Shown in pieces: positions 16,362-62,192 of a stretch of 64,000 nucleotides of DNA; the stretch's first letter is position 1, and each line of letters begins with the position of its first letter. The DNA lies in contig NZ_JARVCO010000010.1 of assembly GCF_034531395.1 (NCBI RefSeq), forward strand, positions 434,001 to 498,000, given 5' to 3'. Both the position numbers and the translations under genes were made by a program. The stretch is from Pontiella agarivorans. Lineage in GTDB: Bacteria; Verrucomicrobiota; Kiritimatiellia; Kiritimatiellales; Pontiellaceae. The notes beneath the pieces are model-generated. The model was not told the origin of the DNA and searched no databases. It saw nothing but the letters and a program-made list of their open reading frames with translations.

Positions 16362-17810
16362 TTACTTAAAAAAGTTCACAATTTTCGAGACGAGACTTTC
16401 CTCGCCGTCAGCTTCATCAAATTCAGTTTCATCGTCTGTTTCGGGCAACTGCTCCAGTTTTTCCCGGGCGCGTTCCGCGACAGCCGGGTTCCAGTCCTTG
16501 GAAAGTTCGGTCAGAGCGAAGCGGGTCAGAATTGGATTTTCGCAAAGTGCCAGACGAACGCAGACCGCGTCGTCGCGCGTCAGTTTCCGGACATGGGAAC
16601 TGGTCAGTTCCTCGGCCGCACAGGCAAAGGTCCGCAGGGAAGGGCGTTTGTGGGACAGCAGTTTTTCAAGCAGTTCCGGTTTGGTCCGGGTAAACGTCAC
16701 GCCTTTCAAGGCCAGATGCGCGATCGCTTCCATATCCTCGCGTTCGTTTACAAAAATATTCACCATCTCTTCGTCAAGATCATCGCGGTAAATCATCTGC
16801 AATCGAACATCGTCCGACTCATGATGGCAAAGCTCAATTTTTCCAGACCTTGGAAGATTCGGGTTTGCGGCCAGAGCTTGACAGGCCGCCGGATCGTTGG
16901 ATGCGGCAATCAGCAGGGCGACTTCTTCATCGATTTCCGGGTTTGCGGCCAGCGCGGCGCGGACCTCGGCCGAGGAATCGGCGGCGAGCAGGTGCTGGAT
17001 TTCGACCGGCAGCGCCGGATATCCGGCGGTTTCCGCCCGTAGTTTTTTGTTGTCCGATTCCGCGCGGGCGAGCAGCTCGGCGGCATCGGGTTCATAGAGG
17101 TCCTTCACTGCACTTTTCACCAGCGGGTCGGGACTGAAGCGAAGGGCCTGTATGATTTCCGGCTTCAGTTTTGAACGACTGAGCAGCAGACGCTGCATTT
17201 CCGGATTATCCGATTCCGCCCAACCCAGCAGCATCTCCTCGTCCACCCGGCCGAAACCGAATAAGGCCGCTCGGATTACGGCGCTGTCATCGGCCGAAAG
17301 GGCATGTACGATTTCGGCGGGAAGTTTGGCGGAAAATGCGAGGGCGGCGCGTACAGCCGGCTCCGGATCACAGGCCAGGGCGGCGCGGTAATTATCATTA
17401 ATCGTTCCGTTCCCGGCGAGCGATGCCCGCACCGTCAGGCTTGGATCGTTCAGCAGTTCCGAGGTGATCTTCGAGTTCTGCAGTTTATTGGCCGCCAGTG
17501 CGGCCCGAACCGCCGGACCGCCCTCTCGTGCCATGCGTACCAGCAGCAGATGGGAACAGCGCGGGTTGGTGGCAATGGCCGCCTGAATTTGCGGGTCGGC
17601 GCAGGCGTCGGCCAGATCTTCCAGCACCTGGCTCGGCACGGTGGGGTAGAGTGCCAGAAAGAGCAGTACGTCGCGTTCCGGATGTTCGCTGTAGAGATCA
17701 ATCAGCACGCGGCTGGGCAGCAGGTTGTGACGGTATTGCTTCACAACCTCGCGCGGGCCATCGTTTCGGATGGCCTCCAGCAGTTCGTCTTTATGGATCT
17801 CAGCAGGCAT
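16362..17810 (-). CDS. Leucine-rich-variant / HEAT-like repeat protein
   Basis: 482 residues built almost wholly of helical repeats of roughly 24 residues, with recurring VRAALAxNxxL and LPxEIxxxL patterns (GPAVRAALAANKL, PAVRAALAFSAKLP, AVIRAALFGFGRVD, AEVRAALAANPEID, DPAACQALAANPNLP). This matches the LRV class of alpha-solenoid scaffolds. The C-terminus is acidic (PETDDETEFDEADGEE) and ends in a short amphipathic helix. The stop of ftsK lies only 2 bases upstream of this start, so the two are coupled. A role as a protein-binding platform for the FtsK translocase is inference from position. Confidence 0.8.
   Translation of the reverse strand: MPAEIHKDELLEAIRNDGPREVVKQYRHNLLPSRVLIDLYSEHPERDVLLFLALYPTVPSQVLEDLADACADPQIQAAIATNPRCSHLLLVRMAREGGPAVRAALAANKLQNSKITSELLNDPSLTVRASLAGNGTINDNYRAALACDPEPAVRAALAFSAKLPAEIVHALSADDSAVIRAALFGFGRVDEEMLLGWAESDNPEMQRLLLSRSKLKPEIIQALRFSPDPLVKSAVKDLYEPDAAELLARAESDNKKLRAETAGYPALPVEIQHLLAADSSAEVRAALAANPEIDEEVALLIAASNDPAACQALAANPNLPRSGKIELCHHESDDVRLQMIYRDDLDEEMVNIFVNEREDMEAIAHLALKGVTFTRTKPELLEKLLSHKRPSLRTFACAAEELTSSHVRKLTRDDAVCVRLALCENPILTRFALTELSKDWNPAVAERAREKLEQLPETDDETEFDEADGEESLVSKIVNFFK
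16489..16503. repeat. TTCCA-N5-TGGAA palindrome
   Basis: TTCCAGTCCTTGGAA, inside the LRV-repeat gene; in that frame it encodes SKDWN. Confidence 0.7.
16841..16855. repeat. TTCCA-N5-TGGAA palindrome
   Basis: TTCCAGACCTTGGAA, second copy inside the LRV-repeat gene but in another reading frame (encodes LPRSGK). Confidence 0.7.
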
Positions 17811-17812
17811 GA

Positions 17813-19708
17813 TTAATAACTGTCGATTAAAATTTCGCGCGGGGTGCTGCCGATCTGCGGGCCGACAATGCCGCGGCGTTCCATTTCTTCAATCAGGTTG
17901 GCGGCGCGGTTGTAGCCGATACGCAGACAACGCTGAATATAGGAGGTCGATGCCCGCTGGTCGCGCAGAATAATTTCAATAGCCTGGTCGAGCAGTTCAT
18001 CGGATGCTTCCGCATCCTGCAGGGCATAGGCCTCGTCGCTGTCACATGGGGCCAGATCGGTGATGGAGGTTTTAAAGTGCTGTTCCCGCTGTTCTGCGCA
18101 GTGCGCAACGGCCCGCGCAATTTCGTCATCGTCGACCCACGGTCCCTGCACCCGTTTAAGGGTTCCGATGCCCGGCGGACTGAAGAGCATATCGCCTTTT
18201 CCGCGCAGCGCTTCGGCGCCGCGGCCATCCAGAATGGTGCGCGAATCAATCTGCGACGACACTTTGAATGCAACACGGGTCGGGAAGTTGGCTTTAATCA
18301 TGCCGGTGATCACATTAACGCTCGGGCGCTGCGTGGCAATGATGGTGTGAATGCCGACCGCGCGCGAAAGCTGGGCAATACGGGCCAGCGCGGTTTCCAC
18401 ATCGGCCCCGGTGGTCAGCATAATATCCGCCAGCTCGTCAATGATGACGACGAGGTAGGGCATGCGTTTCATGCCGAGTTCATCCATTTTGGCATTGTAG
18501 CCCGCAATATTCCGCGCTCCAACCTGCGCCATGGTTTTATAGCGCTCCTCCATTTCCCGCACGACCCACTGCAGGGCGGGCACCACCAGTTTGGCTTCTG
18601 TGATGACCGGCCGAACGAGGTGCGGCAGTTTTTCGTAGGCACCGAACTCGACGCGTTTCGGGTCGATTAGAATCAGCTCCAGTTCATCCGGAGAAAATTT
18701 ACTGAGCAGGCACATCAGAATGGTATTCATGCAGACCGATTTGCCGCTGCCGGTTGCGCCGGCAATCAGCATATGGGGTGCGGCATTGAGGTCGGCAATA
18801 CAAAGGCTTCCGCCCAGCTCCATGCCCAGCATCAGCGGAATGGCGGCGGACGTTTCCTGCCAATCTCTGGAGCGCAGCAGCAGGCCGAGGTTGAGCGGCG
18901 CGGAATTGCCGTTCGGAATTTCGAGCCCGACGTAGGGCTTGCCCGGAATCGGAGCCTGAATGCGGATGCTTTCGGCCGCCAGTGCCAGTGCCAGATTATT
19001 GCTCAGCGAACTAATGGCTTCCACGCGGACGCCGAGGCCGGGCTTGAGACGCAGCTGGGTGACACGCGGGCCGACGACGGCATCCCAGACGGTGGCGTCG
19101 ACCGCAAAATTGTCGAGGGTATCCTGAACCGCCTTTTTCTGGTGCTCCAGCTCTTCGGGATCAATAAAGATGAAGTCGGTATTTTCCGGCTGATTAAAGA
19201 GATCGGCGCCGGGGCGCATATAGTCGTCTTCCACAGCCGCCACCTGCTCATGAACTTCATGTTCGGGTTCCACGATTTCGATGGGGGCCGGTTCGGCGGC
19301 CACGGTTTTCGGCAGAGGCTCTTCTTTAATTTCGCTTAATTTCTGCTGCACCGTGTCGGCATGCTGTCTGATCCGTTCGATGGCCGCGTTCCGAGCATTG
19401 GAAAAACGTTCCTGCTGTGCGGAGCGGGCGGCAATACGGTCCGCATATTCGGTCCGCCAGGCGGCGAGCTGTTCCTCGCGCTGAATCCGCTGCTCTTCAG
19501 CGGCGGCTTCGGCGGGGTCGATAACATCCTCAAATTCGTCCTCTTCTTCGACTTCGACGACGCGCTCAAAGCCGGCGGCTGAGAGCAGGCCATCGCCGAT
19601 ACGGGTCATGAACGACCGCACTGCACGGGCGGAAAAAGGGTCTGATCCCTTGAATTCCAACGGCTTGCGGTTACGGTTTTCGAGTTTTTCTGGAGAGGCT
19701 TGCGGCAT
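17813..19708 (-). CDS. ftsK: FtsK/SpoIIIE-type DNA translocase lacking a membrane domain
   Basis: 631 residues. The motor is complete: Walker A GATGSGKS (317-324), Walker B IIDELAD (422-428), and a C-terminal gamma winged helix (about 570-631: STSYIQRCLRIGYNRAANLIEEME) of the kind that reads KOPS-like sites and activates XerCD. The first about 200 residues are acidic and coiled-coil-like, with no transmembrane segments, whereas standard FtsK has four. Either this is a soluble translocase or anchoring is supplied by a partner. No clear ribosome site precedes the chosen ATG; the in-frame Met about 34 codons later is an alternative. The stop is 2 bases from the LRV-repeat gene. Confidence 0.93.
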   Translation of the reverse strand: MPQASPEKLENRNRKPLEFKGSDPFSARAVRSFMTRIGDGLLSAAGFERVVEVEEEDEFEDVIDPAEAAAEEQRIQREEQLAAWRTEYADRIAARSAQQERFSNARNAAIERIRQHADTVQQKLSEIKEEPLPKTVAAEPAPIEIVEPEHEVHEQVAAVEDDYMRPGADLFNQPENTDFIFIDPEELEHQKKAVQDTLDNFAVDATVWDAVVGPRVTQLRLKPGLGVRVEAISSLSNNLALALAAESIRIQAPIPGKPYVGLEIPNGNSAPLNLGLLLRSRDWQETSAAIPLMLGMELGGSLCIADLNAAPHMLIAGATGSGKSVCMNTILMCLLSKFSPDELELILIDPKRVEFGAYEKLPHLVRPVITEAKLVVPALQWVVREMEERYKTMAQVGARNIAGYNAKMDELGMKRMPYLVVIIDELADIMLTTGADVETALARIAQLSRAVGIHTIIATQRPSVNVITGMIKANFPTRVAFKVSSQIDSRTILDGRGAEALRGKGDMLFSPPGIGTLKRVQGPWVDDDEIARAVAHCAEQREQHFKTSITDLAPCDSDEAYALQDAEASDELLDQAIEIILRDQRASTSYIQRCLRIGYNRAANLIEEMERRGIVGPQIGSTPREILIDSY

Positions 19709-20253: not shown

Positions 20254-20286
20254 GACAGGTTAATCCGTTTGTTCGCAGCTTAATGT

Positions 20287-27270: not shown

Positions 27271-27407
27271 TCTATTCTCTCCAAAAAAAACGGGCGTCAG
27301 GCTATGCAGACTTAATGGGTATTGCAATACGGATTTATGTTTTTTGTCCGTTACAATTTCTGCATGAAATAATAGTGGTGGCCAAATGGGCGCGTGTTAA
27401 CATCTTT

Positions 27408-27466
27408 TTCAATCCTTGGAAGTACTGTGAATGTACGGGGGATTGTTGTTTTTCCAATGGTTGGAT
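27408..27466. promoter_or_regulatory. Upstream region of the SPFH operon with two degenerate TTCCA palindromes
   Basis: TTCAATCCTTGGAA (27408-27421) and TTCCAATGGTTGGAT (27452-27466) are one-mismatch members of the window-wide palindrome family and flank the inverted repeat GTAC...GTAC. They lie 24-82 bases before the SPFH start, followed by a strong AAGGAGG ribosome site. Confidence 0.4.
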
Positions 27467-31620: not shown

Positions 31621-31728
31621 ATGACAATCCGAAAATTGCTCAAAAACAGGGCTCCATTCTCTTCCAATGGCTGGAAATGGGCGCTTGCGCTCGGCGTGAT
31701 TGCCCTGCATGGTTCACCGTTTAATTAA
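31621..31728 (+). CDS. Candidate 35-residue membrane peptide upstream of the parvulin gene
   Basis: The frame from ATG 31621 gives MTIRKLLKNRAPF... with a C-terminal hydrophobic stretch (WKWALALGVIALHG) and ends 17 bases before the parvulin ATG. A basic head plus hydrophobic tail is what a small membrane peptide looks like. Against it: AGG touches the start codon instead of being well spaced, and a TTCCA palindrome lies within the frame. Confidence 0.25.
   Translation: MTIRKLLKNRAPFSSNGWKWALALGVIALHGSPFN
31662..31676. repeat. TTCCA-N5-TGGAA palindrome
   Basis: TTCCAATGGCTGGAA, 70 bases before the parvulin gene start. Confidence 0.7.
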
Positions 31729-32029: not shown

Positions 32030-32060
32030 TTCCAGTGATTGGAAATTCCCGGGATTGGAA
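32030..32060. repeat. Two adjacent TTCC-N-GGAA palindromes
   Basis: TTCCAGTGATTGGAA (32030-32044) is exact; TTCCCGGGATTGGAA (32046-32060) differs at one arm position. They lie back to back between the parvulin stop and its terminator. Confidence 0.65.
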
Positions 32061-40382: not shown

Positions 40383-41969
40383 TCAACCGCAGGTGATGCC
40401 TTCCCAGAGAATCCACGGGCCGCCACATCCGGCTTCAACGCCTTCTTTATGATACTTCCCGCAGCCGCCCCATTTATTGATCGGCTCGCTGCCGTTTTCA
40501 TTCAGCGGGTCCTCTTCCGAAATCACGCTTTTGGCGATGATGGAATCCAGCAGGCGCGGGACCGGATCGGACAATTCAATATGCCCGCCCTGCGGACCGA
40601 GGAACAGCTTTCCGGTCCGTTTCCCGTTTTTCACCTCTTCGAGGTATTCCGTACCGGCCGTCAGGCCCATCCCTTTAGGATCTTCCATGCCACCGTGGGC
40701 GTGTTCGGCAATAAAGCCATCGCCGCACAGTTCGGCCAGCTGATCGAGCGTTTTGTCGCCGGCCGTGAAGTAGGTGTTGGTCTGGCGCGGCATCAGCGGG
40801 CGTTTCCAGCTTTCGCGTTTGCCGTTCGACTGACGCGGCGATGGCCCGTTGATATCGCCGACGATGGAGGACATCAGGTCATTCATCGGCGATGAAAGTT
40901 CACCTTTATCCAGAATAACCTGGGGCCGGGCAATGAACCCTTCATCATCGAAAAAGTGGGTGCCGTTGACGCCGTAGGGGATGGTCCCCATGGCAAAGAC
41001 GCCGGCGTTGTTGATGATCGAAGCCTGCTCATTGCCGACTTTGATTCCTTTCTTTTTCAGGCCGGGAGCACAGCTGCGGCCGAGGCGGCAGGTATCGCCC
41101 TCCTGCGTATGGCCGAAGGCTTCGTGGGCAATCACACCGGTTACATCCGGGCCGGTAATAATGCGGTAACGCCCGGGTTTGATCCGTTCGGCGTGTTCCA
41201 CTTTATCGGCCGTTTCCACCAGTTTGGTAATCAGCGCATCGTTAATTGCCGCAGCGGCTTCGGCTCCGGTCATACCGCCGATAATGTCGCGCACATTTTT
41301 GCCCGACGGCGTAATCGCATAAATATAGTAGAGGCTGGAAAAGAGCGACTGCGACATCATGCGGGTACGGTCAACAAACAGGCGGCTTTTAACTTTGCGG
41401 CGGATCATGCAGCCGGCCGATGCCAGTTTATCGCCGCCCTTTTCCATGATGGCTTCTTTGATCGCTTTGGAGCGCGCGGCGGTTTCGGCGCGGTCCATCG
41501 ATTCCGAAATCGACGGATCATAGGCATTGCCGAAATGTACGGGTTTTCCAGCCTCCGGAAGTTTTCCATTGATCAGGATCTGTTCGCGGATCGGAGCTGC
41601 AAACTGATCGATCGGTTCGTCGGCCCAGGTCGGCGGAGTGTAAACCGCCGGATTTTCCAGGGATTGGAAATAATCGAGGGCTTCGGCGCGCAGACGTTCC
41701 GCCGCAGAAAGAAGAGCGGTTTCATCGAAGTTGTTCGTGGCATATTCAAAATTCCGGTGTCCGGCAAGAATACGCAGCACGATGCCGCGGTCCATCGTCA
41801 GTCCGCTTGCTTCGGTCTGGCTGACGTGGCTCTGGAACTGATCGAGATCTTCCAGACAGGCGAAGGCATAGATTTTATCTTCAACGCCGGTTTCCAGCGT
41901 CTGGACCAGTTTTCCAAGCATTGGAAAAAATGCACGGAGTTCGTCGGAAAGGGGATAATATGTTTTCAT
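40383..41969 (-). CDS. tldD: TldD-family metalloprotease (active subunit type)
   Basis: 528 residues. TldD proteases form heterodimers with TldE/PmbA and trim unfolded or modified peptides. The zinc-binding motif is present as HEAFGHTQEGD (HExxxH at 282-287), and the C-terminal Cys-rich end (WGGCGKYHKEGVEAGCGGPWI) matches many members. It contains two exact TTCCA palindromes (41655, 41912). The gene order is tldE-like then this gene, 15 bp apart, both minus strand. Confidence 0.9.
   Translation of the reverse strand: MKTYYPLSDELRAFFPMLGKLVQTLETGVEDKIYAFACLEDLDQFQSHVSQTEASGLTMDRGIVLRILAGHRNFEYATNNFDETALLSAAERLRAEALDYFQSLENPAVYTPPTWADEPIDQFAAPIREQILINGKLPEAGKPVHFGNAYDPSISESMDRAETAARSKAIKEAIMEKGGDKLASAGCMIRRKVKSRLFVDRTRMMSQSLFSSLYYIYAITPSGKNVRDIIGGMTGAEAAAAINDALITKLVETADKVEHAERIKPGRYRIITGPDVTGVIAHEAFGHTQEGDTCRLGRSCAPGLKKKGIKVGNEQASIINNAGVFAMGTIPYGVNGTHFFDDEGFIARPQVILDKGELSSPMNDLMSSIVGDINGPSPRQSNGKRESWKRPLMPRQTNTYFTAGDKTLDQLAELCGDGFIAEHAHGGMEDPKGMGLTAGTEYLEEVKNGKRTGKLFLGPQGGHIELSDPVPRLLDSIIAKSVISEEDPLNENGSEPINKWGGCGKYHKEGVEAGCGGPWILWEGITCG
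41655..41669. repeat. TTCCA-N5-TGGAA palindrome
   Basis: TTCCAGGGATTGGAA inside the tldD-like gene; encodes FQSLE on the minus strand. Confidence 0.7.
41912..41926. repeat. TTCCA-N5-TGGAA palindrome
   Basis: TTCCAAGCATTGGAA inside the tldD-like gene; encodes FPMLGK, a different frame from the copy at 41655. Confidence 0.7.
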
Positions 41970-43472: not shown

Positions 43473-44630
43473 TCAGCTTTTCACGCGCAGGGCGGACGGG
43501 ATGGCGAAGAGGCCGAGGACGGCGGTTATTTTGTATGTAATCGCCAGACCGTAGTGGTCGGCCGCAAAGCCGACGATCATGGCGATGGCGGAGCCGGCGG
43601 CAAAGTTCATGGTCATAAAAAGGCCGTTGGCGAGCGATGGGCGGTCGGAGTTGAGATCGTGGATCATGGCCATGAAGACCGGTGTGCTGGCAAAAAAGAG
43701 CAGGCCCATCAGGATCAGCAGAAGCCAGAGTACGATTCCGCCGGAAAGGGTGAATAGATACATCAGTGCCGGGGAGATCAGCATAATGCCGAGCAGCACC
43801 TTTTTGCGGCCGATCCGGTCGGACAGACTGCCGGCTCCGAGGGCGCCGAGGGCGCCGGCGAGCTCAAGAAGGGCCAGTGCGGCGGCTGCGGTTTTCAGGG
43901 GGTGGCCGTGGTCGACCATGTAGGAGGGCAGAAAGAGGGCGAGCGCAGATTTGGAAAAGCCGCGGAAAAACATGATCGGCAGAATTGTGCTGAACAGCGG
44001 GGTCATGCCCCGGAAAGATTTTAAAAGGGGTTCTTTGGCGGGGGTGCTGAAATGGAGGAGGTCTGCTTTGCGGATGGTGCGCAGGTTCAGAAACAGCAGC
44101 AGCGAAGCCGCGAGGCCGACCGGAATCAGGCGCCAGATGCCTTCGAGTCCCCACCAGGAAACCGCGGCGGTGACGAGCAGTGGTCCGACGGTGCGGGCCA
44201 GTTCGCCGCCGAACATGAAGAAGCTCATGCCGCGCCCTATTTTATCGCCGGAAACGCGCCGCATCAGCACGGGGGCGGTGACGTGGTAAACTGCGGCGGT
44301 GATTCCGCTGACCAGCATCAGCAGAGCCAGCATGATAATCGACGGTGCCAGGCCGATCAGGCTCATGGTGACGACCGCAACCACCGGACAGAGAATAATG
44401 CCGGAGCGTATCAGTACCCGGTCGGCGATGATACCGAAGAGCGGATTGAAGAGGGCGGGGATCCGTTGCACCACGGAGAGTGCTCCGGCGAGGGCATAAG
44501 TGAATCCCAGCTTTTCACTCAGCAGTGGAAGCAGCGGAGCAAAAAACGAAGTATACGCATCGTGCAGCAGATGAGTGGCGGCAATGGAGCTGACATGTCC
44601 GCTTTGAAAACGTTTTTCGGCCGGGCTCAT
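43473..44630 (-). CDS. MFS transporter, fosmidomycin-resistance (Fsr) type
   Basis: 385 residues with 11-12 helices. The N-terminal pattern HLLHDAYTSFFAPLLPLLSEKLGFTYALAGALS and the A-like loop DRIGRKKVLLG place it in the Fsr/MFS branch. The start overlaps the stop of the upstream flavodoxin-ferredoxin gene by 4 bp. Substrate unknown; Fsr proteins export fosmidomycin-like phosphonates or other small molecules. Confidence 0.87.
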   Translation of the reverse strand: MSPAEKRFQSGHVSSIAATHLLHDAYTSFFAPLLPLLSEKLGFTYALAGALSVVQRIPALFNPLFGIIADRVLIRSGIILCPVVAVVTMSLIGLAPSIIMLALLMLVSGITAAVYHVTAPVLMRRVSGDKIGRGMSFFMFGGELARTVGPLLVTAAVSWWGLEGIWRLIPVGLAASLLLFLNLRTIRKADLLHFSTPAKEPLLKSFRGMTPLFSTILPIMFFRGFSKSALALFLPSYMVDHGHPLKTAAAALALLELAGALGALGAGSLSDRIGRKKVLLGIMLISPALMYLFTLSGGIVLWLLLILMGLLFFASTPVFMAMIHDLNSDRPSLANGLFMTMNFAAGSAIAMIVGFAADHYGLAITYKITAVLGLFAIPSALRVKS

Positions 44631-45400
44631 TGGCCGAGAAAGATTTCGGGTTCGCGCCGTTCAGAAAAATGGTCGTTCAGTTTCTGCGCGGTCGCCCTGA
44701 TGGGTTCAAGGGTCAGACTGCGGGCATCTGCCGGGCAGAAGCGCAGGCAGGCCATGCACCAGATACAGTTATCAGGGTCGGCTTCAGCCACAGAATTATT
44801 GATCGACATTCCCTGTGTCGGACAGATTTCAATACATTTGCCGCAGGCGGTGCAGCGTTCCGGATCGACCGATGTGGCGGACCCGGTCAGAGTTTTTCCG
44901 GCTTTATAGGGCCGGTGGCCGGGCACCGTTTTGAGTTCTGCGGTTCCGATCTGTCGGCCGAAGGCTTCCGCTTTCTCAAGATCGGCGGCATCGGGCCGCC
45001 CTTTGGAGAGAGGAAGCTGCGGAGTTGAAAATGAATGTTCGCCCAGGAACGTGCCGGCCGCCACCGGCCGGAATCCCTGTTTGCGGCAGCAGTCGTAGAG
45101 TTCAATCAGCGCATCGTCGTAGTGACGGTTCCCATAAACCACCACCGGTACAACGGCTGCGTCGTTTCCGGTGATTGGAAGAAAGCGTTGCACCGCCAGT
45201 TGCGGCAATCGGCCGGCGTAAACCGGCATGCCGACCAGAACGAGGTCGTCTTTTCCGAAAACGGGAAGCGGTTCCGGGGATCGGCAGGTGAGGTCGGTTT
45301 CGCTTTGTACCGTGCCGTTGGTGCCGCGCGTAATGGCTTCCAATGTTTTGCGGGTGGTTGCTGTAGGGGAGAAGTAAATCAAGTGTATTTTTCTGTGCAT
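44627..45400 (-). CDS. EFR1-type flavodoxin/2[4Fe-4S] ferredoxin fusion
   Basis: 257 residues. N-terminal flavodoxin-like domain (IYFSPTATTRKTLEAI, VLVGMPVYAGRLPQLAV, VVVYGNRHYDDALIEL), then two [4Fe-4S] clusters: CTACGKCIEICPTQ and CIWCMACLRFCPADA. Electron carrier of the EFR1 family; partner unknown. AAGGA precedes the ATG. Overlaps the MFS gene, so the two are translationally coupled; the reason for pairing a redox protein and an exporter is not clear. Confidence 0.9.
   Translation of the reverse strand: MHRKIHLIYFSPTATTRKTLEAITRGTNGTVQSETDLTCRSPEPLPVFGKDDLVLVGMPVYAGRLPQLAVQRFLPITGNDAAVVPVVVYGNRHYDDALIELYDCCRKQGFRPVAAGTFLGEHSFSTPQLPLSKGRPDAADLEKAEAFGRQIGTAELKTVPGHRPYKAGKTLTGSATSVDPERCTACGKCIEICPTQGMSINNSVAEADPDNCIWCMACLRFCPADARSLTLEPIRATAQKLNDHFSERREPEIFLGQ
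45166..45180. repeat. Near-perfect TTCC-N-GGAA palindrome
   Basis: TTCCGGTGATTGGAA within the flavodoxin-ferredoxin gene, one arm position changed from the consensus. Confidence 0.5.
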
Positions 45401-46067: not shown

Positions 46068-47012
46068 TTAGACCGTGACGACGGCTTTGCCGACGGTGCG
46101 GCCGGATTCAAGCTGTCGATGGGCGTCCTGCAGTTGGTCGAACGGGAAGGTTTTTGAAACGTGCGGTTTGAGCGTTCCGGCTTCCAGCATCTCTTTCAGC
46201 GTATTCATATCTGTACCGTTGGAGGTAACGAGAATGAATTCCACGTTAAGGTGCCGGGCTTCGGCTTCTTTGATAACGTCTTCCGGAAAATCCGGGACGG
46301 GAAGAGAAACCGCGCCGCCCCCGTCTTTAAGCACTTTGATCGATTTCGACAGTGTTTCGCCGCCCATGCCGTCGAGCACAAAGTCGATGTTGTTCAGGAC
46401 CTCTTCAAACTGCACTTCGCGGTAGTCGATATGTTCATCGGCACCCATGGCCATGCAGAAATCTTTGTTCTTTGCGGATGATGTAGTGATAACCTGCGCA
46501 CCTAGGTTTTTGGCTATCTGAATGGCGAAATGGCCGACGCCGCCGGAACCGGCATGAATCAGTACGCGGTCGTCTTTTTTAACGCGCGACTGCAGCACCT
46601 GCAGCGCGGTCAGGGCCGCCAGTGTCGTTGCGGCGGCGTCTTCGAATGAGCAGTTTTCCGGCATGTGGGCGAGATGGTCGGCCGGAGAGGCGACGTATTC
46701 TGCATAGGCTTTTCCATGCCCTGGAAAATTCACCATGCCGAAGACCTTGTCGCCGACCTTGAAACCGGTGACATCTGTGCCGGTTTCGGCGACGACGCCG
46801 GCAATATCCCAGCCGATGATGACCGGACGTTCTTCGGTCTGCATGATCATGTTGAGGACTTCTTCATGCGGTCGTACTTTCACGTCGACCGGGTTGATGC
46901 TGATGGCTTTGGTTTCCACCAGAACTTCATTGGCGTTGATTTCGGGTTTTTCAATGTCGGACAGGACGAGGTTTTCCACGCCGCCGGCTTCATGTAGTAC
47001 GTATGCTTTCAT
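46068..47012 (-). CDS. Quinone/zeta-crystallin-type NADP-dependent oxidoreductase
   Basis: 314 residues from ATG 47012 with AGGAG. MDR-superfamily enzyme without the structural zinc Cys cluster: N-terminal MKAYVLHEAGGVENL, ISINPVDVKVRP, the Rossmann GSGGVGHFAIQIAKNLGAQVI and the C-terminal GRTVGKAVVTV. Reduces quinones or enones using NADPH. It begins the electrophile-handling region. A TTCCA palindrome (46712) lies inside. Confidence 0.92.
   Translation of the reverse strand: MKAYVLHEAGGVENLVLSDIEKPEINANEVLVETKAISINPVDVKVRPHEEVLNMIMQTEERPVIIGWDIAGVVAETGTDVTGFKVGDKVFGMVNFPGHGKAYAEYVASPADHLAHMPENCSFEDAAATTLAALTALQVLQSRVKKDDRVLIHAGSGGVGHFAIQIAKNLGAQVITTSSAKNKDFCMAMGADEHIDYREVQFEEVLNNIDFVLDGMGGETLSKSIKVLKDGGGAVSLPVPDFPEDVIKEAEARHLNVEFILVTSNGTDMNTLKEMLEAGTLKPHVSKTFPFDQLQDAHRQLESGRTVGKAVVTV
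46712..46726. repeat. TTCCA-N5-TGGAA palindrome
   Basis: TTCCATGCCCTGGAA inside the quinone oxidoreductase gene; encodes FPGHGK. Confidence 0.7.
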
Positions 47013-47043
47013 TTGTCTGTCTCCTGTTTGTTTTAAGAATGAA

Positions 47044-48381
47044 TCATCGCATTTCAAATAGTTCCTGATGGAATGCTGAATTAAATCCACATCCTTTAAG
47101 GTCTTTTTTTAAGGATGCTCCCATTTTTGATGGGCCGCAGAACCAAACGCTTTTAGATTTCCAGTTCGAGACCGTATTTCGAATATGTTCTCCTGAAATA
47201 CGGGGAGATTTACAGGTTTCAAACAGGTGCAACTTGACGTTGGCTGCGGCTGAAAGCTGCTTCAACTTATTCTTTAAACTGGAATCTAATTTTTCTGTCG
47301 TGTAGAAAAAATCAATTTCCGGCGTATCCATCTGTTGGCCCAGGCGCTCCAATCGTGCGAGGAAAGGCGTTAGACCAACTCCACCGGCTATCCAAATTTG
47401 ACTTTCCTGGTTGTGATTAAATGTGAAGTTGCCATACGCGCCTTCGAGTACGACCGAGTCGCCGACGCTCAATCGATCAGCCAACGCATTGGTATAATCG
47501 CCAAGCGCCTTAATGGTGAAACTGATCAGTTTGGTGTTTTTATCCCATGCCGAGCTTATTGTGAAAGGGTGGTGCGGCTCTTTCTTTTCAAACTTCAGAA
47601 AGGCAAATTGACCTTCATGATGACCTGCCCACTTATCGCTTTTAATTACTAATTCAAACATGTTCATGTCCGGATAGGTATTGATCGCCTGAATGGAACC
47701 CGCGGCCTTTCGCTTTTTGCCCGCTTGCCTAAATAGAACAATGCATGCTGACGCGGTGCCTGCGACCATTAAAAGGGCCATCGTTATGCCAATGGGCTGC
47801 GTCCAATATTTGATATACATCAATGCAAAAGCATGAAAAGTCAGCGCCAGATAAATGATGGCCATTCCAATGTGGGTTTTTGCAAAGAAGCGATACGGTA
47901 TCTTCTTCAGCAAGGCGATAATGAGAAACAGAACTGTTAAATAAAAAGCATACTGACCTGTTTGAAGGGCCGGAAATTCAATCGCTTCAAAGAATCTTTC
48001 GAAGGCGGTGGGCTCAGCTTCAACCTGAGTGGCTCCCGAGATGCCATCCAGAATGATTATATTTTCTAAATATGACGACCATTTCGGCAGTTGACTCGCT
48101 AACCAGTGTATAACGGAAAAAGAAAAAGCAACAATGCCGAGCCATTTATGCAGGCGATAAATTTTGTCCAGTCCGCCCGCCCATTTCTCAAGCCACATCG
48201 GGCGAGTGGCCAGTACCATGGCAAACGTCATAGCGGTAAAAGCAATAATTCCAGTGTACTGATCAACGCTTTTGCTGAACAAATTGGAATCAAAAGGAAT
48301 ATACACCAGCGTATTGGTCAAAAACCAAATGATCGAAATGAGGATAAACGGAAGGATAAATATGAGTTTAATTTTTTTCAT
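47044..48381 (-). CDS. Ferric-reductase-like membrane flavoprotein
   Basis: 445 residues from ATG 48381. Six hydrophobic helices carry a ferric-reductase domain with heme-ligand candidates (IYRLHKWLGIVAFSFSVIHWL, KTHIGMAIIYLALTFHAFAL), followed by an FAD domain (HPFTISSAW, VVLEGAYGNFTF) and an NAD(P) domain (IWIAGGVGLTPFLARL, VWFCGPSKMG). Transfers electrons from NAD(P)H across the membrane via heme; substrate could be Fe(III), quinone or a partner. Composition is visibly more AT/Lys/Ile-rich than its neighbours, hinting at transfer. Confidence 0.88.
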   Translation of the reverse strand: MKKIKLIFILPFILISIIWFLTNTLVYIPFDSNLFSKSVDQYTGIIAFTAMTFAMVLATRPMWLEKWAGGLDKIYRLHKWLGIVAFSFSVIHWLASQLPKWSSYLENIIILDGISGATQVEAEPTAFERFFEAIEFPALQTGQYAFYLTVLFLIIALLKKIPYRFFAKTHIGMAIIYLALTFHAFALMYIKYWTQPIGITMALLMVAGTASACIVLFRQAGKKRKAAGSIQAINTYPDMNMFELVIKSDKWAGHHEGQFAFLKFEKKEPHHPFTISSAWDKNTKLISFTIKALGDYTNALADRLSVGDSVVLEGAYGNFTFNHNQESQIWIAGGVGLTPFLARLERLGQQMDTPEIDFFYTTEKLDSSLKNKLKQLSAAANVKLHLFETCKSPRISGEHIRNTVSNWKSKSVWFCGPSKMGASLKKDLKGCGFNSAFHQELFEMR

Positions 48382-52087: not shown

Positions 52088-52684
52088 CTACGTTCGGAGT
52101 TCTTCGAGGCGGTGTTTAATATGCTCCACGGTGAGGCGCACGGGTTCCGATGTCTGGAAAATAACCGCCCGCTGTGCGGCGCCCGCCCAGTGGTCCTGAA
52201 TGAGCGAAGCTTCTGCGGCCGTATCAAAATCTTTGGGCAGCTGGCCGGCCGCGACGGCGTCGTCGAGCACCTCCTGATAAATAGAAATCCAGTCGTTAAA
52301 TCCCTTCATCAGTTCCTCGCGCATACCCTCGCTGATTTCCGACACCTCGTTGCCCAGTTTGACGGCGAGGCAGGGGAATCTGCCGGGGTGTTTATCCATA
52401 AAGGCAATGCTGCCTTCCAGATATTGGAAAAGACGCTTCAGAGCATCCGGTTCTTTTGCCCGGTTAAGCATGAACGAGCGCTTATGTGCGCTGGCCTCAG
52501 CCATGTAGTGCTTCATCATTTCGATGCCGAACTGCTCTTTAGATTCGAAATAGTGATAAAACGATCCTTTCGGCACTTTTACGGCATCCAGCAGCTGTTT
52601 GAGGCCCACGGCGTGGAAACTGTGCTCCAGCATCAGTGCTTCCGCCGCTTCCAAAATCCGTTCTCTGGTTGGTTTCCCGTTCAT
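52088..52684 (-). CDS. TetR-family transcriptional regulator
   Basis: 198 residues from ATG 52684; a start at 52696 is also possible, and one at 52744 would place operator O2 inside the gene. N-terminal helix-turn-helix: TRERILEAAEALMLEHSFHAVGLKQLLDAVKVPKGSFYHYFESKEQFG. The C-terminal ligand domain includes DKHPGRFPCLAVKLGNEVSEIS, as in NemR/TetR_C_6 types. Flanked by two identical 15-bp operators, one over its own promoter and one before the nitroreductase operon, so it probably represses both and is induced by a reactive substrate. A TTCCA palindrome lies at 52415. Confidence 0.92.
   Translation of the reverse strand: MNGKPTRERILEAAEALMLEHSFHAVGLKQLLDAVKVPKGSFYHYFESKEQFGIEMMKHYMAEASAHKRSFMLNRAKEPDALKRLFQYLEGSIAFMDKHPGRFPCLAVKLGNEVSEISEGMREELMKGFNDWISIYQEVLDDAVAAGQLPKDFDTAAEASLIQDHWAGAAQRAVIFQTSEPVRLTVEHIKHRLEELRT
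52415..52429. repeat. TTCCA-N5-TGGAA palindrome
   Basis: TTCCAGATATTGGAA inside the tetR gene; encodes FQYLE. Confidence 0.7.
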
Positions 52685-52698
52685 GATGTGTCGCATAT

Positions 52699-52713
52699 TA
52701 GACCGGTCGTCTA
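52699..52713. promoter_or_regulatory. TetR operator O2 (autoregulatory)
   Basis: TAGACCGGTCGTCTA, identical to O1, immediately upstream of the tetR start. Confidence 0.8.
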
Positions 52714-52962
52714 GAAGGACAAGTTTAAAATGCAGCTTATTCATGTCGACGGATGAATTTCTGAAAAAGGGTCTGTAGGAATCTGTTTTTAGAATGATGA
52801 ACTTGACGCATTACCGTATGAAATATGCGGGGATGCTTATAGTCATAGGGTGCGGATTTTCGTTGTATAACAGGTTCATGGATTCTGTATCCTGCGGACC
52901 GGCCTGCGGGGCACGGGATTCATGATGAAGCGTGATACTGTGTGGTGAGCGTTTGAGGGGGA

Positions 52963-54994: not shown

Positions 54995-55042
54995 TTCCGA
55001 ATAATGGAAATGACAAGGCGTCCTTCGGGGCGTCTTTTTTTT
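54995..55042 (+). terminator. TTCC-N-GGAA palindrome and intrinsic terminator after symporter
   Basis: TTCCGAATAATGGAA (54995-55009) precedes AAGGCGTCC-TTCG-GGGCGTC and a T-run (55013-55042). It is the third place where a member of the palindrome family directly precedes a terminator. Confidence 0.8.
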
Positions 55043-55438: not shown

Positions 55439-55529
55439 TACCGCCGGGGTGCGCTCGGGGTTGAAATTAGAATCGGTTGAGAAGCGACAGGGTTCCAGTG
55501 GATGGAACATGCTTTTTAAAGGTAGTGGA

Positions 55530-56576
55530 ATGAAAGATGTGAAGGGGTTGTTATACGTTGCTGTATGGATCGGTCTGACTGGATCGGTACATGCTCAGAG
55601 TAAGGTGAGGTTGACCGAAGTTCCACCAGCCAATGAATTGCGGGGGGAAGATTTGAGTACACTGGTCCACGCCGGACTGGAAAGTCTGCAGTGGGGAGTC
55701 CTGCTTGAAGCTGAGGCGGGTTATTCCAGGGCGGGTTCGGTGGAAGAGAGCGACATCAAGCTGGCGACCTTTGAATTTGTCATGGATGCGGCCGTCAATG
55801 ATTGGCTGGGCGGTCATGTTGGTTTTCTCTGGGAGGAAGATGATACGGATCCCGTAGATCTGGATGAAGGCTATATTATTTTAGGCGGGGAAGCGGCCAA
55901 TGGATTTTACGGGCAGGCCGGGAAGTTTTATCTGCCCTTTGGTAATTTCGAGACGGCGTTTATTTCTGATCCGCTGACGCTGGAGCTGGCGGAAATCAAT
56001 AAGAGTTCTGCAATGGCGGGTTATGCCACAGAATGGTTTGATATCAGCGCCGGGGTATTCAAAGGCGACGAAGATGATGTGATTCAGTGCGGTTATGCGG
56101 CCGTGAATTTCAATGTCGGCGAAACGGCTGTTGTGGGGGCCTATGTGCTTTCCGACCTTCTTGAAGCGGACGGTTTTGCGGATCTCAATACAAATTTCGC
56201 CGACCGAGTGGCCGGTGCAGGCGGTTATGTGAATGTTTTTGTGGGGCCGCTGATGCTGAATGCCGAGGTGGTCTCCGCGCTGGATACCATCGATTTCGGT
56301 GGGGGCGAGAAGATGCAGCCGGTGGCCTATAATCTGGAGGCCTCCTGTGCATTTTCGGAAAAATGGGCGGCCGGCCTCAAATATGAGGGATCCGATGAGT
56401 TTTATACGGAGTTTGATGCCGGCCTGGGTGGTCTCTTTTACGAAACAGGCATCGGCGGGGTGGTCTCCTACGGCTTTCACGATAATGCTGTAATCGGTGT
56501 TGAATATATGCGGCAGCTGAATAAGGGCGCGGACGATGCGGATCTGGTTACGGTTCAGCTCGCGTTGGAAATTTAG
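55530..56576 (+). CDS. LbtU-type outer-membrane porin
   Basis: 348 residues from ATG 55530 with AAAGG upstream. A signal peptide (1-23, ending VHAQ) precedes a beta-barrel rich in alternating strands (WGVLLEAEAGYSRAG, FEFVMDAAVNDWLGGHVGFLWEEDDT, GFYGQAGKFYLPFGNFETAF, AAGLKYEGSDEFY) and a terminal aromatic-poor strand LVTVQLALEI. Layout matches LbtU-family siderophore/metal porins. Its place directly before feoAB suggests it admits iron or a chelate across the outer membrane. Confidence 0.85.
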   Translation: MKDVKGLLYVAVWIGLTGSVHAQSKVRLTEVPPANELRGEDLSTLVHAGLESLQWGVLLEAEAGYSRAGSVEESDIKLATFEFVMDAAVNDWLGGHVGFLWEEDDTDPVDLDEGYIILGGEAANGFYGQAGKFYLPFGNFETAFISDPLTLELAEINKSSAMAGYATEWFDISAGVFKGDEDDVIQCGYAAVNFNVGETAVVGAYVLSDLLEADGFADLNTNFADRVAGAGGYVNVFVGPLMLNAEVVSALDTIDFGGGEKMQPVAYNLEASCAFSEKWAAGLKYEGSDEFYTEFDAGLGGLFYETGIGGVVSYGFHDNAVIGVEYMRQLNKGADDADLVTVQLALEI

Positions 56577-59176: not shown

Positions 59177-59250
59177 TGGTGTGTCGAGGATCGCAGATTC
59201 TGCGATTCATAGGGTCATGCGGTAGATGGGGACTTCACAGAGGAAAAACA

Positions 59251-59478
59251 ATGCTTAGCGGAATCATCAGACTCCTGAACGAGCGCTTAGGAGCGCTCTC
59301 TGTTCAGGAAATCAGTCTGGCGCTGGACATCGAGTCCAGCGCACTGCGACCGATGCTCGAGTTGCTCGAGTCCAAGGGCCGGGTTGAGAAGGTCGAAATT
59401 CCGTGCGGAAAATCCTGCGCCGGCGGCTGTACCGAATCCGATACCATGACGTTTTATAAAGTAAAGCGTACCGATTGA
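59251..59478 (+). CDS. FeoC-like winged-helix protein
   Basis: 75 residues from ATG 59251, chosen because AGAGGA is well placed; a longer frame from 59176 has no ribosome site. Winged-helix N-terminus (SVQEISLALDIESSALRPMLELLESKGRVEKVEI) followed by Cys52-X3-Cys56-X3-Cys60 (CGKSCAGGC), as in FeoC proteins that bind an iron-sulfur cluster and protect or regulate FeoB. Confidence 0.88.
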   Translation: MLSGIIRLLNERLGALSVQEISLALDIESSALRPMLELLESKGRVEKVEIPCGKSCAGGCTESDTMTFYKVKRTD

Positions 59479-59502
59479 ATCATGACCCTGCCTTGTCTCT
59501 CG

Positions 59503-59892
59503 CTACTGCATATCGCTCAGGTGCAGTTCGAGAGCGTGGACTGAAATCTGGATTTCATGAATTGATGCGCCGAGCGAGGCAATCAGCATCAGCAGGGCGG
59601 TGCCGAACACAATCTCCGCCGTTCCGACCCAGCTGACATAAATCAGAAACATGCAAAGCACGCAGAGCAGCAGACTGCCGACGCCGAGCACCTGCATGGC
59701 GCGGATCAGATAAAGCCGTTTCCGAAGATTGGAAATCTGTCCGCGCAGTAATTCATCCGGATTTTTCATGTAGTGGTCATGAAGGGTCCGTACCAGATTG
59801 GCATACGAAAGAAAGCGGTTGGTGTAGGCCAGCAGAATCAGCGAGATCGCCGAGAAAAGCAGGGCGGGGGTGGTCAGTGTCAAATGGTTCAT
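59503..59892 (-). CDS. DUF2721 membrane protein
   Basis: 129 residues with three hydrophobic helices (about 8-26, 66-87, 92-110) separated by a charged loop with RQISNLRKRLYLIRAMQ-like sequence (DELLRGQISNLRKRLYLIRA). This is the DUF2721 pattern; function unknown. The start overlaps the stop of the U32-type gene by 4 bp, so the two are coupled. Confidence 0.82.
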   Translation of the reverse strand: MNHLTLTTPALLFSAISLILLAYTNRFLSYANLVRTLHDHYMKNPDELLRGQISNLRKRLYLIRAMQVLGVGSLLLCVLCMFLIYVSWVGTAEIVFGTALLMLIASLGASIHEIQISVHALELHLSDMQ

Positions 59893-62192
59893 AGCGTTTT
59901 CCTGTAGTTGCCGTCATAACTTCCAGGCATTGGAAGTCCCTTCATCGTTCTGCGGATAATTTCAGCCGCGTCCTCAGCATCAATCACTCCGTAGGAGAGA
60001 TCAATCCGGAAATGCCGCGCACCGGCGCGCAATTCATCGAGATATTCAGCCAGCGAAAAGGGGGCTTCAAAAATCAGCACAAACTGATCGCCGTTTTTCT
60101 CGATTTTCATGGGCCGGTTTTTCCGGTCGGATAAATGGTCGCCGCTCTCCGGCCGTGTTGCGGAAATCATCAGCGGCGTATGCTGATAAACCGGAACAAT
60201 GGCGCGGTCGCCCAGCAGGTTCAGTAAAGCCTTCAGGTTATCGCCCGTATCCTCCGGCGAAAGTACCAGCCCGGAAATCCCCAGTTCCTGCCACTGTTCA
60301 GCGGCTTCGGAATTCATCGTGTACAGCGGCCAGTCGGCGGTGAGATCGGGGTGGTCTGCAACCGCCTGAAGCGCGCCGATATTGGCGGCTTCGATGGGTA
60401 GGCCGTGTTTCGGGCGCTGCACGTCGTGATTCCGTTGAATAACCGGAATGGCGATTCTTGAAGGGCGGGGTTCGGTCCTTGCCGGCTCTGAGGAAATGCT
60501 GTTTTCCAGCACAACTTCCAGTTGACTCAATTCCTGTTCGGTAAGTTGCTCTAATAATGAAAGATCCCGGACTTTGACCGACCAGGATTCTTCATTTTCC
60601 GGTTCTGCCGGCGGCCGCACCAGTTTTTCCAATCGTTGGAAATGTTCGGCCTGTTTCTGCTGTTTCAGGTTTTTGCTCAGCCGATCCAGGAGTTGCCGGC
60701 GGCCTTCATTCAGCACGGAGGCCGGAGCAAAAAGACCGTGGTCTTTAACGTCCAGTGATTGGAGAACCCATTCAGTATCGCCCGTTTTTTCGAAGCTCCT
60801 GCGAATCCCCGCCTCGGTCTTTTCAGGTTTACGCGCTTCGCTCAGCGGTTCTTCAATCATCCGCTGTGCCGAAATTTTTCCGGCTTTTGCGGACAGCTGG
60901 ATGCCGCCTGGGCTCAGCTCGACAGCTGCATCGAACGGTTTGCGCTGTTTGCAGGTTCCGGGGCGCGGCGCTTCGAATCCGTAGCGCTGGCGGACGGCCT
61001 GCGACGCCGAGCAATAGAGCGGCATGCCGGCTTCAATGAACGGATGATCCGGCGGCAGCTGCACTTCGATTTCCGCCTCGGCCGGAACCTCAAACTGCAA
61101 ATGTTTTTTCCGATCATTGGAAAACCGCATTTCGCGGGCAAAAAAGTTAAACGGCGGCCGGCCGTCGCCCAGTTCGATTTTGAGTCCGTCGTGCTTCATC
61201 AGGGCGCGGGTGGAGGTAAAGCGGATCCACTGCTGCCCGCGTTCTTTAAAAACATCTTTGATTGTTCCGATCGCGGCCCCGCGGTGTCCGTTGGTGGTGG
61301 GGTCAATCGGATGGGTGTCGGCATTTTTAAGATAAAGGTCGGTGGAAGGCCGCCCGAAAATCGTCTGGATGTCGGCGAGCAGTTTCCGCTGTTCGGTCTC
61401 GCTGAGGCCCTGATCCATCCGTTTACGGTAAAAGTCGGTAACGGCACCGACATAATTCGGACCCTTCATGCGGCCTTCAATTTTAAGGGAGGCCACGCCG
61501 GTTTTCAGCAGTTCATCAAAATGCTCACCGACCGCAAAATCCTTCATCGAGAAGGGCAGGGTGGTTTTTCCCCCGCTGTCAAATTTCATACGGCAGCAGT
61601 AGGCGCATTTTCCGCGGTTGCCGCTGCGGCTGTTGCGATGCGAAGAAAAGAGGCAGAGTCCGCTGTAGGAATAACAGAGCGCGCCGTGGATAAAAACCTC
61701 GGTTTCGATGCCGCAGTTTCGGGTAATGTGTCCAATCTCCGGAAGGCTCAGTTCGCGCGCCAGCACGACGCGCGAAAAACCGAGTTCCTTCAGGAGCCGG
61801 GCTCCTGCCGGATTATGCACGGCCAGCTGGGTGCTGGCATGGAGTTCCAGAGATGGGAAAAACCGCCGCGCCATCCGCGCCACGCCCATATCCTGCACAA
61901 TCACGCCGTCGGCCTTCAGATCGTGAATCAGTGCCAGTGCTTCCAGAGCCTCCGGCAGTTCGTGCTGCTGCACGAGGGTGTTGAAGGTGAGATAGACTTT
62001 GCGGCCGTGGGCATGGGCATAGCCGATCAGTTCGTCCAGCTGTTCCGCCGTCAGGTTGACGGCTTCGGCCCGCGCGGAGAAGCGGGGCAGGCCCGCAAAG
62101 ACGGCGTCAGCACCATAATAAAAGGCCGCCCACGCTGCATCGGCGCTTCCTGCCGGTGCCAAAAGTTCTGCCTGAAAGTTACTCATGAACAT
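59889..62192 (-). CDS. Peptidase U32-family protein (RlhA/collagenase-like)
   Basis: 767 residues; the first two Met are two codons apart (62192, 62186) and neither has a clear ribosome site. N-terminal TIM-barrel U32 domain: ELLAPAGSADAAWAAFYYGADAVFAG, DGVIVQDMGVARMARRFFPSLELHASTQLAVHNPAG, EVFIHGALCYSYSGLCLFSS followed by iron-sulfur ligand cysteines (GKCAYCCRM). Large C-terminal region as in RlhA, which makes 5-hydroxycytidine at 23S rRNA C2501 in E. coli. Contains exact TTCCA palindromes at 59921 and 60627 and a near one at 61108. Confidence 0.88.
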   Translation of the reverse strand: MFMSNFQAELLAPAGSADAAWAAFYYGADAVFAGLPRFSARAEAVNLTAEQLDELIGYAHAHGRKVYLTFNTLVQQHELPEALEALALIHDLKADGVIVQDMGVARMARRFFPSLELHASTQLAVHNPAGARLLKELGFSRVVLARELSLPEIGHITRNCGIETEVFIHGALCYSYSGLCLFSSHRNSRSGNRGKCAYCCRMKFDSGGKTTLPFSMKDFAVGEHFDELLKTGVASLKIEGRMKGPNYVGAVTDFYRKRMDQGLSETEQRKLLADIQTIFGRPSTDLYLKNADTHPIDPTTNGHRGAAIGTIKDVFKERGQQWIRFTSTRALMKHDGLKIELGDGRPPFNFFAREMRFSNDRKKHLQFEVPAEAEIEVQLPPDHPFIEAGMPLYCSASQAVRQRYGFEAPRPGTCKQRKPFDAAVELSPGGIQLSAKAGKISAQRMIEEPLSEARKPEKTEAGIRRSFEKTGDTEWVLQSLDVKDHGLFAPASVLNEGRRQLLDRLSKNLKQQKQAEHFQRLEKLVRPPAEPENEESWSVKVRDLSLLEQLTEQELSQLEVVLENSISSEPARTEPRPSRIAIPVIQRNHDVQRPKHGLPIEAANIGALQAVADHPDLTADWPLYTMNSEAAEQWQELGISGLVLSPEDTGDNLKALLNLLGDRAIVPVYQHTPLMISATRPESGDHLSDRKNRPMKIEKNGDQFVLIFEAPFSLAEYLDELRAGARHFRIDLSYGVIDAEDAAEIIRRTMKGLPMPGSYDGNYRKTL
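59921..59935. repeat. TTCCA-N5-TGGAA palindrome
   Basis: TTCCAGGCATTGGAA near the 3' end of the U32-type gene; encodes LPMPGS. Confidence 0.7.
60627..60641. repeat. TTCCA-N5-TGGAA palindrome
   Basis: TTCCAATCGTTGGAA inside the U32-type gene; encodes FQRLE, in another frame from the copy at 59921. Confidence 0.7.

Follow-up and report, generated by a model that had tools for sequence, protein, structure and literature searches.

A gapped 15-bp palindrome iterated across genomes of Kiritimatiellia as the candidate site of a chromosome-wide DNA-binding protein

The matS site (GTGACRNYGTCAC) is an odd-length palindrome with an R-N-Y center that is recognized by a dimer of MatP and functions in chromosome organization; Escherichia coli carries about 23 matS sites, confined to one macrodomain. 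Ss-LrpB boxes are 15 bp long and separated by 16- to 17-bp linkers, and Fur-family boxes have a 7-1-7 layout. More generally, sites of the Lrp family are spaced two or three helical turns apart (PMC2995911). HIP1 (GCGATCGC) is a highly iterated palindrome of cyanobacteria whose function is unsettled (PMC4390886). Bacterial DNA words as long as the one described here seldom reach such density, and what the best-known one, HIP1, does is still an open question.

A 64,000-nucleotide stretch of the genome of the marine bacterium Pontiella agarivorans (the window) was scanned for the sequence TTCCA-N5-TGGAA, and 15 exact copies were identified. The initial annotation had located eleven of these correctly and missed the four starting at 2681, 11389, 14977, and 55493. 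The six copies it had described as carrying one arm change were confirmed, and the two it had called degenerate are one-mismatch sites, the first of which starts at 27407 and not at 27408. The sites and their locations are as follows, with strands referring to the host gene.

2681..2695, exact site TTCCATAGCCTGGAA, within gene 2478-3467 (minus strand)
11389..11403, exact site TTCCAAGGCCTGGAA, within PLD-like gene 11105-13018 (plus strand)
14977..14991, exact site TTCCAGCAGTTGGAA, within TatD gene 14641-15408 (plus strand)
16489..16503, exact site TTCCAGTCCTTGGAA, within gene 16362-17810 (minus strand)
16841..16855, exact site TTCCAGACCTTGGAA, within gene 16362-17810 (minus strand)
19389..19403, R-variant site TTCCGAGCATTGGAA, within ftsK-like gene 17813-19708 (minus strand)
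27407 and 27452 (start positions), one-mismatch sites
31662..31676, exact site TTCCAATGGCTGGAA, intergenic
32030..32044, exact site TTCCAGTGATTGGAA, intergenic, followed by the one-mismatch copy at 32046
32046..32060, one-mismatch site TTCCCGGGATTGGAA
40255..40269, exact site TTCCAACCCTTGGAA, intergenic, with convergent genes on both sides
41655..41669, exact site TTCCAGGGATTGGAA, within PmbA/TldD-like gene 40383-41969 (minus strand)
41912..41926, exact site TTCCAAGCATTGGAA, within the same PmbA/TldD-like gene, 40383-41969 (minus strand)
45166..45180, R-variant site TTCCGGTGATTGGAA, within gene 44627-45400 (minus strand)
46712..46726, exact site TTCCATGCCCTGGAA, within zinc dehydrogenase gene 46068-47090 (minus strand)
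52415..52429, exact site TTCCAGATATTGGAA, within TetR-family gene 52088-52744 (minus strand)
54995..55009, R-variant site TTCCGAATAATGGAA, intergenic
55493..55507, exact site TTCCAGTGGATGGAA, within gene 55449-56576 (plus strand)
59921..59935, exact site TTCCAGGCATTGGAA, within U32 peptidase gene 59889-62192 (minus strand)
60627..60641, exact site TTCCAATCGTTGGAA, within the U32 peptidase gene, 59889-62192 (minus strand); identical in the related genome G017, absent in G005
61108..61122, R-variant site TTCCGATCATTGGAA, within the U32 peptidase gene, 59889-62192 (minus strand); identical in G017

Allowing one mismatch or fewer, the window held 41 sites compared with 2.62 ± 1.48 in dinucleotide shuffles, none of 100 shuffles reaching 41. 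Across the 4.44-Mb genome there were 1,146 exact copies, an average of about one site per 4 kb, and five of the reversed pattern, an excess larger than first claimed. As in other highly iterated palindromes, the word lies far above chance across genome and lineage. Spacer length was fixed, with 221 copies of N5 in a sampled 864 kb and 0 to 5 copies for each other spacer from 0 to 25. The consensus, (T)TTCCA-RNSNY-TGGAA(A), is strictly symmetric over 15 bp; it retains the R-NNN-Y interior proposed at the outset and adds a G/C spacer center (90% of copies) and T/A-enriched outer flanks, with conservation ending at about 2 bp. The inner R and Y positions vary independently (A-T, 22; A-C, 22; G-T, 22; G-C, 16), a pattern that would be expected of two protein contacts rather than base pairing. 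None of the motif variants tried was found printed in the literature searched.

Seventy-five percent of copies were intragenic, occupying all three reading frames (74, 35, and 56 copies in frames 0, 1, and 2) as the initial annotation had stated. An explanation of the copies by codon usage had been named beforehand as one way in which its claim could fail; coding sequences in the sampled 864 kb contained 165 copies, compared with 18.3 after synonymous-codon shuffling (maximum of 26 in 30 shuffles). The claim survived, and codon usage was rejected as the source of the copies. Given this approximately 9-fold excess and the use of all frames, the constraint acts on DNA rather than protein, as first suggested, and comparisons of orthologues gave further support. 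Conserved sites with diverged spacers were found in 14 of 56 comparisons versus about 2.1 expected, approximately 7-fold in a small sample; the site at 59921..59935, for example, is kept in G017 despite a changed spacer and amino acid (LPMPGS/LPMIGS). Paralogous families had a lower site density, and a 40-kb flagellar region had zero sites in its coding sequences. This is not an obvious prediction of a purely architectural site and resembles uptake sequences.

Arrays of sites were identified at 117 loci, in which spacing peaked at 21 to 22, 31 to 32, 52 to 53, 62 to 63, 83 to 84, and 93 to 94 bp, placing the sites on one helix face. These palindromic sites are thus aligned at two or three helical turns (21 to 22 and 31 to 32 bp, and sums of these), as in Lrp boxes. 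Phased arrays hold three to eight sites, and arrays at both spacings occur in several families of Kiritimatiellia; genome G048 carries 31/32-bp arrays and has 746 phased pairs. The window's own genome has mostly single sites, and phasing was not significant over the sampled 864 kb; three-turn pairs in that genome numbered 18 versus about 1.2 expected from density, and were above chance in most motif-bearing relatives too. No gene family was common to the neighbors of the 117 arrays, and an autoregulated array beside a shared gene was rejected on this basis. In the low-copy genomes G054 and G056, only defense and unrelated genes neighbored the sites.

The word was enriched in 13 of 42 sampled families of the class Kiritimatiellia and in none outside the class. 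One family (f18) has few TTCCA copies and instead uses a symmetric dialect, TTCCG-RNSNY-CGGAA; in its genome G069, 321 of 412 TTCCGN5CGGAA copies obey the spacer rule (12.5% expected), and 32-bp pairs of the dialect are present in phage contigs. Copies of TTCCGN5CGGAA in G004 and G014 do not obey the rule. Some congeners have lost the word, and inspection of about 100 kb of the low-copy congener G004 and about 72 kb of G019 showed no replacement dyad. In phages related to one another, arrays are kept upstream of terminase genes, at one noncoding place, and array copy number differs between close phages.

Copies in and between genes, helical line-up, and a spelling variant together look like the landing site of a chromosome-wide protein. 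Of the three candidates initially put forward, a chromosome-organizing or global protein site fits best, and we consider it slightly more probable than not that the word is the site of a dimeric, sequence-specific, cooperatively binding, chromosome-wide putative protein of Kiritimatiellia. We infer the existence and identity of this protein, its cooperative binding, and its chromosome-organizing role from the patterns described above. Its action would extend over the chromosome instead of being limited to a few promoters, resembling that of a nucleoid-associated or Lrp-type architectural protein. Within the major groove, each monomer would read a single half-site (TTCCA/TGGAA), with the spacer R...Y and central G/C read as DNA shape. 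Dimers adjacent on the same helix face may bind cooperatively, which we propose as the reason for the two- and three-turn spacing. Selection for having sites, mostly without fixed position, would create and keep them by point substitutions, and selected sites could persist even in genes, altering the encoded peptides. A changed protein specificity would account for the family-wide replacement of A by G at the fifth base of both arms, and loss of the protein for the lack of sites in some congeners. More tentatively, the data may describe a class-wide, sequence-directed chromatin system, with a dedicated nucleoid protein, between one and two thousand exact 15-bp sites in coding sequence, helical arrays in other families, and a symmetric dialect swap in one bacterial family. 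If the word is the site of a nucleoid protein, it would represent genome-wide, protein-directed sequence evolution inside genes.

Examination of the Lrp/AsnC and Fur families and of array neighbors did not identify a binding protein, and neither family was supported. Of 35 well-completed genomes, 34 encode a single Lrp/AsnC protein (PF01037), whether sites number in the thousands or are absent. The promoter of its gene lacked sites, none of these proteins was autoregulatory, and by eye a conserved Arg of the recognition helix was missing in site-bearing G000, G017, and G041. Lrp/AsnC was rejected as the binder because it showed no link to copy number and its own gene was without sites. The Fur family (PF01475) is absent from G048 (1,808 sites), G040, G036, and G030, and was rejected since it is missing in several site-rich genomes.

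A DNA uptake sequence, by which naturally competent Kiritimatiellia would prefer word-bearing DNA and recombination would drive copy number in susceptible genome parts, is an unlikely alternative. The word is enriched in genes and intergenic DNA, in all frames and with an excess outside genes, and arises by substitution, which is the published pattern (PMC1939737). Also consistent are the dialects, the loss of the word in relatives, its lower density in paralogous and flagellar genes, and the arrival of sites with defense genes in low-copy genomes. However, the word is strictly palindromic, published uptake sequences are non-palindromic, phased arrays of three to eight sites have no uptake role, and phages hold theirs at a single noncoding place. 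All 35 well-completed genomes searched in the class encode ComEC (PF03772); as it is equally present in genomes without the word, it speaks neither for nor against uptake. Should the word prove to be an uptake sequence, it would be palindromic and would belong to a phylum for which we know of none.

We regard it as improbable that the word has no structural role and owes its maintenance to a DNA methyltransferase or to a bias in mismatch repair. Its core, CCAN5TGG, is among the known targets of type II methylation and is recognized by enzymes such as PflMI. Cyanobacterial HIP1 is likewise an iterated palindrome tied to methyltransferases and rapidly lost or replaced in some strains (PMC4390886). 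Nevertheless, specificity extends well beyond the 6-base core (outer TT/AA, RNSNY, and flanking T/A), and helical-spacing arrays are not expected from methylation. Similarly doubtful is the regulator site initially suggested, taken here as an operator for a conventional transcription factor whose regulon would be very large. Dimeric geometry, an intergenic density about 2-fold the genic, and arrays upstream of phage late genes favor it, but it fits poorly with the distribution of sites, which are not concentrated upstream of genes: three-quarters lie in coding sequences, the intergenic regions poorest in sites are those between divergent genes (0.41/kb) and the richest those between convergent genes (0.93/kb), and array neighbors share no gene family.

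An RNA-level element (hairpin, terminator, or processing site) is very improbable. A weak hairpin of 4 to 7 bp is possible and sites are densest in intergenic regions of the convergent class, yet the inner R and Y positions show no paired covariation, no alternative arms of the same pairing are enriched in the genome, many shuffles fold equally well, spacing tracks the DNA helix, and the arrays match no Rfam family. The mobile short palindrome (REP/MITE-like) of the initial annotation, suggested by numerous dispersed copies and the variable arrays of close phages, is scarcely credible, as inserted units of conserved extent and empty sites were not found in the sequences compared, flanks are unconserved beyond about 2 bp, orthologous sites align without insertions and differ mostly by substitutions with intermediate point variants, and alignment gaps showed no clear enrichment (9 of 68 sites versus 7% of background windows).

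With cultured anaerobes (Pontiella and Tichowtungia), a precise consensus, a dialect, species that have lost the word, and phages available, the putative protein and its function are directly searchable. Among described systems, HIP1 is also a short palindrome repeated hundreds to thousands of times throughout a lineage and lost or replaced in some relatives; however, it is an ungapped octamer based on GATC/CGATCG methylation sites, whereas the word here is a gapped 5-5-5, 15-bp sequence with a spacer rule, phased arrays, and a one-base symmetric dialect. Lrp/AsnC (FFRP) boxes, which are palindromic sites of dimers, have the same alignment at two or three helical turns, but the word here occurs in thousands, with near-invariant arms and a GC center, and the sole Lrp homologue of the class does not track it. 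The DUS and USS of Neisseriaceae and Pasteurellaceae are comparable in density, genic placement in all frames, substitution-based evolution, and dialects, although the word here differs in being strictly palindromic and in forming helical arrays. Finally, matS/MatP shares the odd-length palindrome with an R-N-Y center, but its approximately 23 sites lie in one macrodomain, compared with roughly one per 4 kb here.

The 64-kb window contained 15 exact copies of the 15-bp gapped palindrome TTCCA-N5-TGGAA. Allowing one mismatch raised the count to 41, compared with a mean of 2.62 and a maximum of 6 at the same tolerance in dinucleotide shuffles of the window. Every copy named in the initial annotation was present, including two described as degenerate that were ordinary one-mismatch copies, although four exact copies had been overlooked. 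The over-representation it described held across the whole genome (4,436,865 bases, 12 contigs), where 1,146 exact copies were counted against 5 for the reversed pattern, AAGGTN5ACCTT. In 864 kb of this genome, a spacer of 5 bp gave 221 copies and each other spacer from 0 to 25 bp gave 0 to 5, while half-sites in the opposite order or the same direction showed no comparable peak. A symmetrized consensus, (T)TTCCA-R-N-S-N-Y-TGGAA(A), was generated from 93 copies; position 6 was A or G in 95%, the center G or C in 90%, and, in 52%, the base flanking the arms was T (A at the opposite end). One-mismatch copies mostly changed the fifth base from A to G, and the CC/GG core was nearly invariant. The inner R and Y combined independently (A-T, 22; A-C, 22; G-T, 22; G-C, 16) and therefore do not pair with each other in an RNA or cruciform stem.

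Using a simple hexamer gene finder, which makes in-gene counts approximate, 165 of the 221 copies were placed inside predicted genes, in all three reading frames (74, 35, and 56). Synonymous-codon shuffling within genes left a mean of 18.3 copies (maximum, 26); thus, protein sequence does not explain the genic copies, and the constraint lies on DNA, as initially proposed. Genic density was 0.40/kb for single-copy genes and fell to 0.18 to 0.27/kb where paralogues existed. No sites were identified in the longer coding sequences examined from a flagellar-gene-rich 40-kb region (G000:C2:320000-360000 of the window's genome; stretches L047 and L048); for P. agarivorans NLcol2, a cultured marine anaerobe of Kiritimatiellia, the published description notes flagellar genes without motility (PMC10880615). 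Intergenic DNA, about 12% of the sequence, carried 24% of the copies. Counted with a one-letter-relaxed pattern, intergenic density was 0.93/kb between convergent genes, 0.68/kb between tandem genes, and 0.41/kb between divergent genes, the opposite of a promoter-centered regulon.

In the window's U32 peptidase gene, the sites at 59921, 60627, and 61108 recur in genome G017 (72% amino acid identity), one of them despite changes in its spacer and in a residue (LPMPGS to LPMIGS). All three are absent from the congeners G005 and G004, and order-level relatives and genome G001 share other sites within this gene. Across reciprocal-best genes of site-bearing genomes, all ten fixed bases were kept in 14 of 56 comparisons (a small, nonindependent sample); windows elsewhere that matched in codon phase predict about 2.1. 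Nine sites could be aligned with low-copy G004, and none of them was kept there. Alignment gaps held 9 of 68 sites and 7% of background windows, so insertion was not the main route of site origin, contrary to the suggestion of a mobile palindrome. These comparisons indicate that sites arise and decay by point substitution and that their position is conserved in part. The same pattern, buildup in genes through substitution plus an excess in intergenic DNA, has been published for DNA uptake sequences (PMC1939737), the main rival explanation for the word.

In other families, sites were strung in intergenic arrays of two to eight with mostly unconserved linkers. Across 117 array loci, distances between sites peaked at 21 to 22, 31 to 32, 52 to 53, 62 to 63, 83 to 84, and 93 to 94 bp, which correspond to steps of two and three helical turns added together; the loci were chosen for one 31/32-bp pair, leaving the remaining peaks as independent evidence. 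Arrays occurred in all gene orientations, and no neighboring gene family common to the 117 loci was found. The 31/32-bp rule recurred in overview stretches of genome G048, which carried 746 pairs at 30 to 33 bp, compared with 249 in G028 and 51 in G001. The window's genome had 18 such pairs, of which site density would account for about 1.2; considered separately, phasing in the 864 kb was not significant. In genome G057, arrays often lay at contig ends (C1, C13, C18, C34, C48, C64, C65, and C77) and some linkers recurred between arrays, which therefore behave there like an assembly-breaking repeat family. Both the helical arrays and the palindromy fall outside the published uptake pattern.

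Among 58 relatives, most members of the genus (up to 2,297 copies) and the whole sister family showed strong enrichment of the word, but some congeners had almost none (20 copies in 4.3 Mb of G004 and 20 in 3.0 Mb of G019); no replacement palindrome was seen in the stretches read from low-copy congeners. Among 388 genomes of the phylum, enrichment was confined to the class Kiritimatiellia, where 13 of the 42 sampled families showed it, and counts outside the class did not exceed 30. When two copies at 31/32 bp were sought in the genomes of 84,980 species, the matches listed were mainly labeled Kiritimatiellae, Lentisphaerae, Verrucomicrobia, and Pontiellaceae, labels that belong to unclassified MAGs and may not reflect true class. 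Phased pairs also occur in the low-copy genomes G056 (L321 7423-7470) and G054 (L324 7402-7449); by eye, they lie at a CD-NTase-type defense-like gene and within a Cas3-like gene that neighbors a Cas5-like gene, which suggests that defense genes acquired horizontally bring sites with them. Separately, a ComEC match in G053 (same class; 3.1 Mb, two contigs; C1:1409676-1410500) contains three in-frame TAG codons; either it is a pseudogene or this genome reads TAG as an amino acid. The unrelated G109 (same phylum, family f44, 2.4 Mb) has another over-represented gapped palindrome, with 55 copies of AAGGTN5ACCTT and none of the forward word.

Pairs at 31/32 bp were also present in twelve viral-contig stretches. 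Two related phages with terminase, portal, Mu-like protease, and capsid genes carry 7 to 11 phased sites in noncoding DNA immediately upstream of the terminase genes. By eye, the corresponding position in two further relatives retains two or three copies that are partly degenerate. Across this group (L372 to L375; portals 80 to 100% identical to the query; 2 to 11 sites), the location is kept, but close relatives differ in site number.

A variant spelling, TTCCG-N5-CGGAA, was over-represented in family f18 (412 copies against 6 for the control in G069, 334/6 in G195, and 204/3 in G435), where TTCCA-N5-TGGAA was near background (6 to 18 copies). The RNSNY spacer, expected in 12.5%, was found in 321 of 412, 232 of 334, and 174 of 204 of these copies, respectively; genus g20 of f18 followed it more weakly (25 of 108 in G431), and it did not hold for the few TTCCG-N5-CGGAA words of G004, G014, and G292. 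Phage contigs likewise had variant pairs at 32 bp that followed the spacer rule. If a dimeric reader altered its specificity, it would be expected to leave such a trace, with one base changed symmetrically in the two arms and all else kept. Five identical copies of TTCCGAAAACCGGAA on viral contig L385 (374-500; GC, 0.41), with iteron-like 32/23-bp spacing and outside the RNSNY rule, are probably unrelated to the word.

Given the long gapped palindrome, independent inner contacts, exact spacing, helical phasing, and symmetric variant, the word is best read from sequence as the site of a putative dimeric DNA-binding protein, whose dimers would cooperate on one helix face. A chromosome-wide role is suggested by its density, by the predominance of intragenic copies, and by the absence of any preference for promoters; of the initial candidates, a chromosome-wide protein site is thus favored over a promoter-centered regulator. 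A HIP1-like methylation-linked word (PMC4390886) is a third possibility, after the uptake sequence. None of six spellings of the word was found printed in the PMC open literature (subscription papers were outside the scope). As candidate readers, Fur-family proteins are missing from site-rich genomes, and the occurrence of the sole Lrp/AsnC protein in the class is not linked to that of the sites. Uptake sequences are alike in accumulation but differ from the word in its palindromy and helical arrays, whereas Lrp-family boxes, spaced two or three helical turns apart (PMC2995911), share its array geometry. The word would thus appear to work like an Lrp/NAP array.
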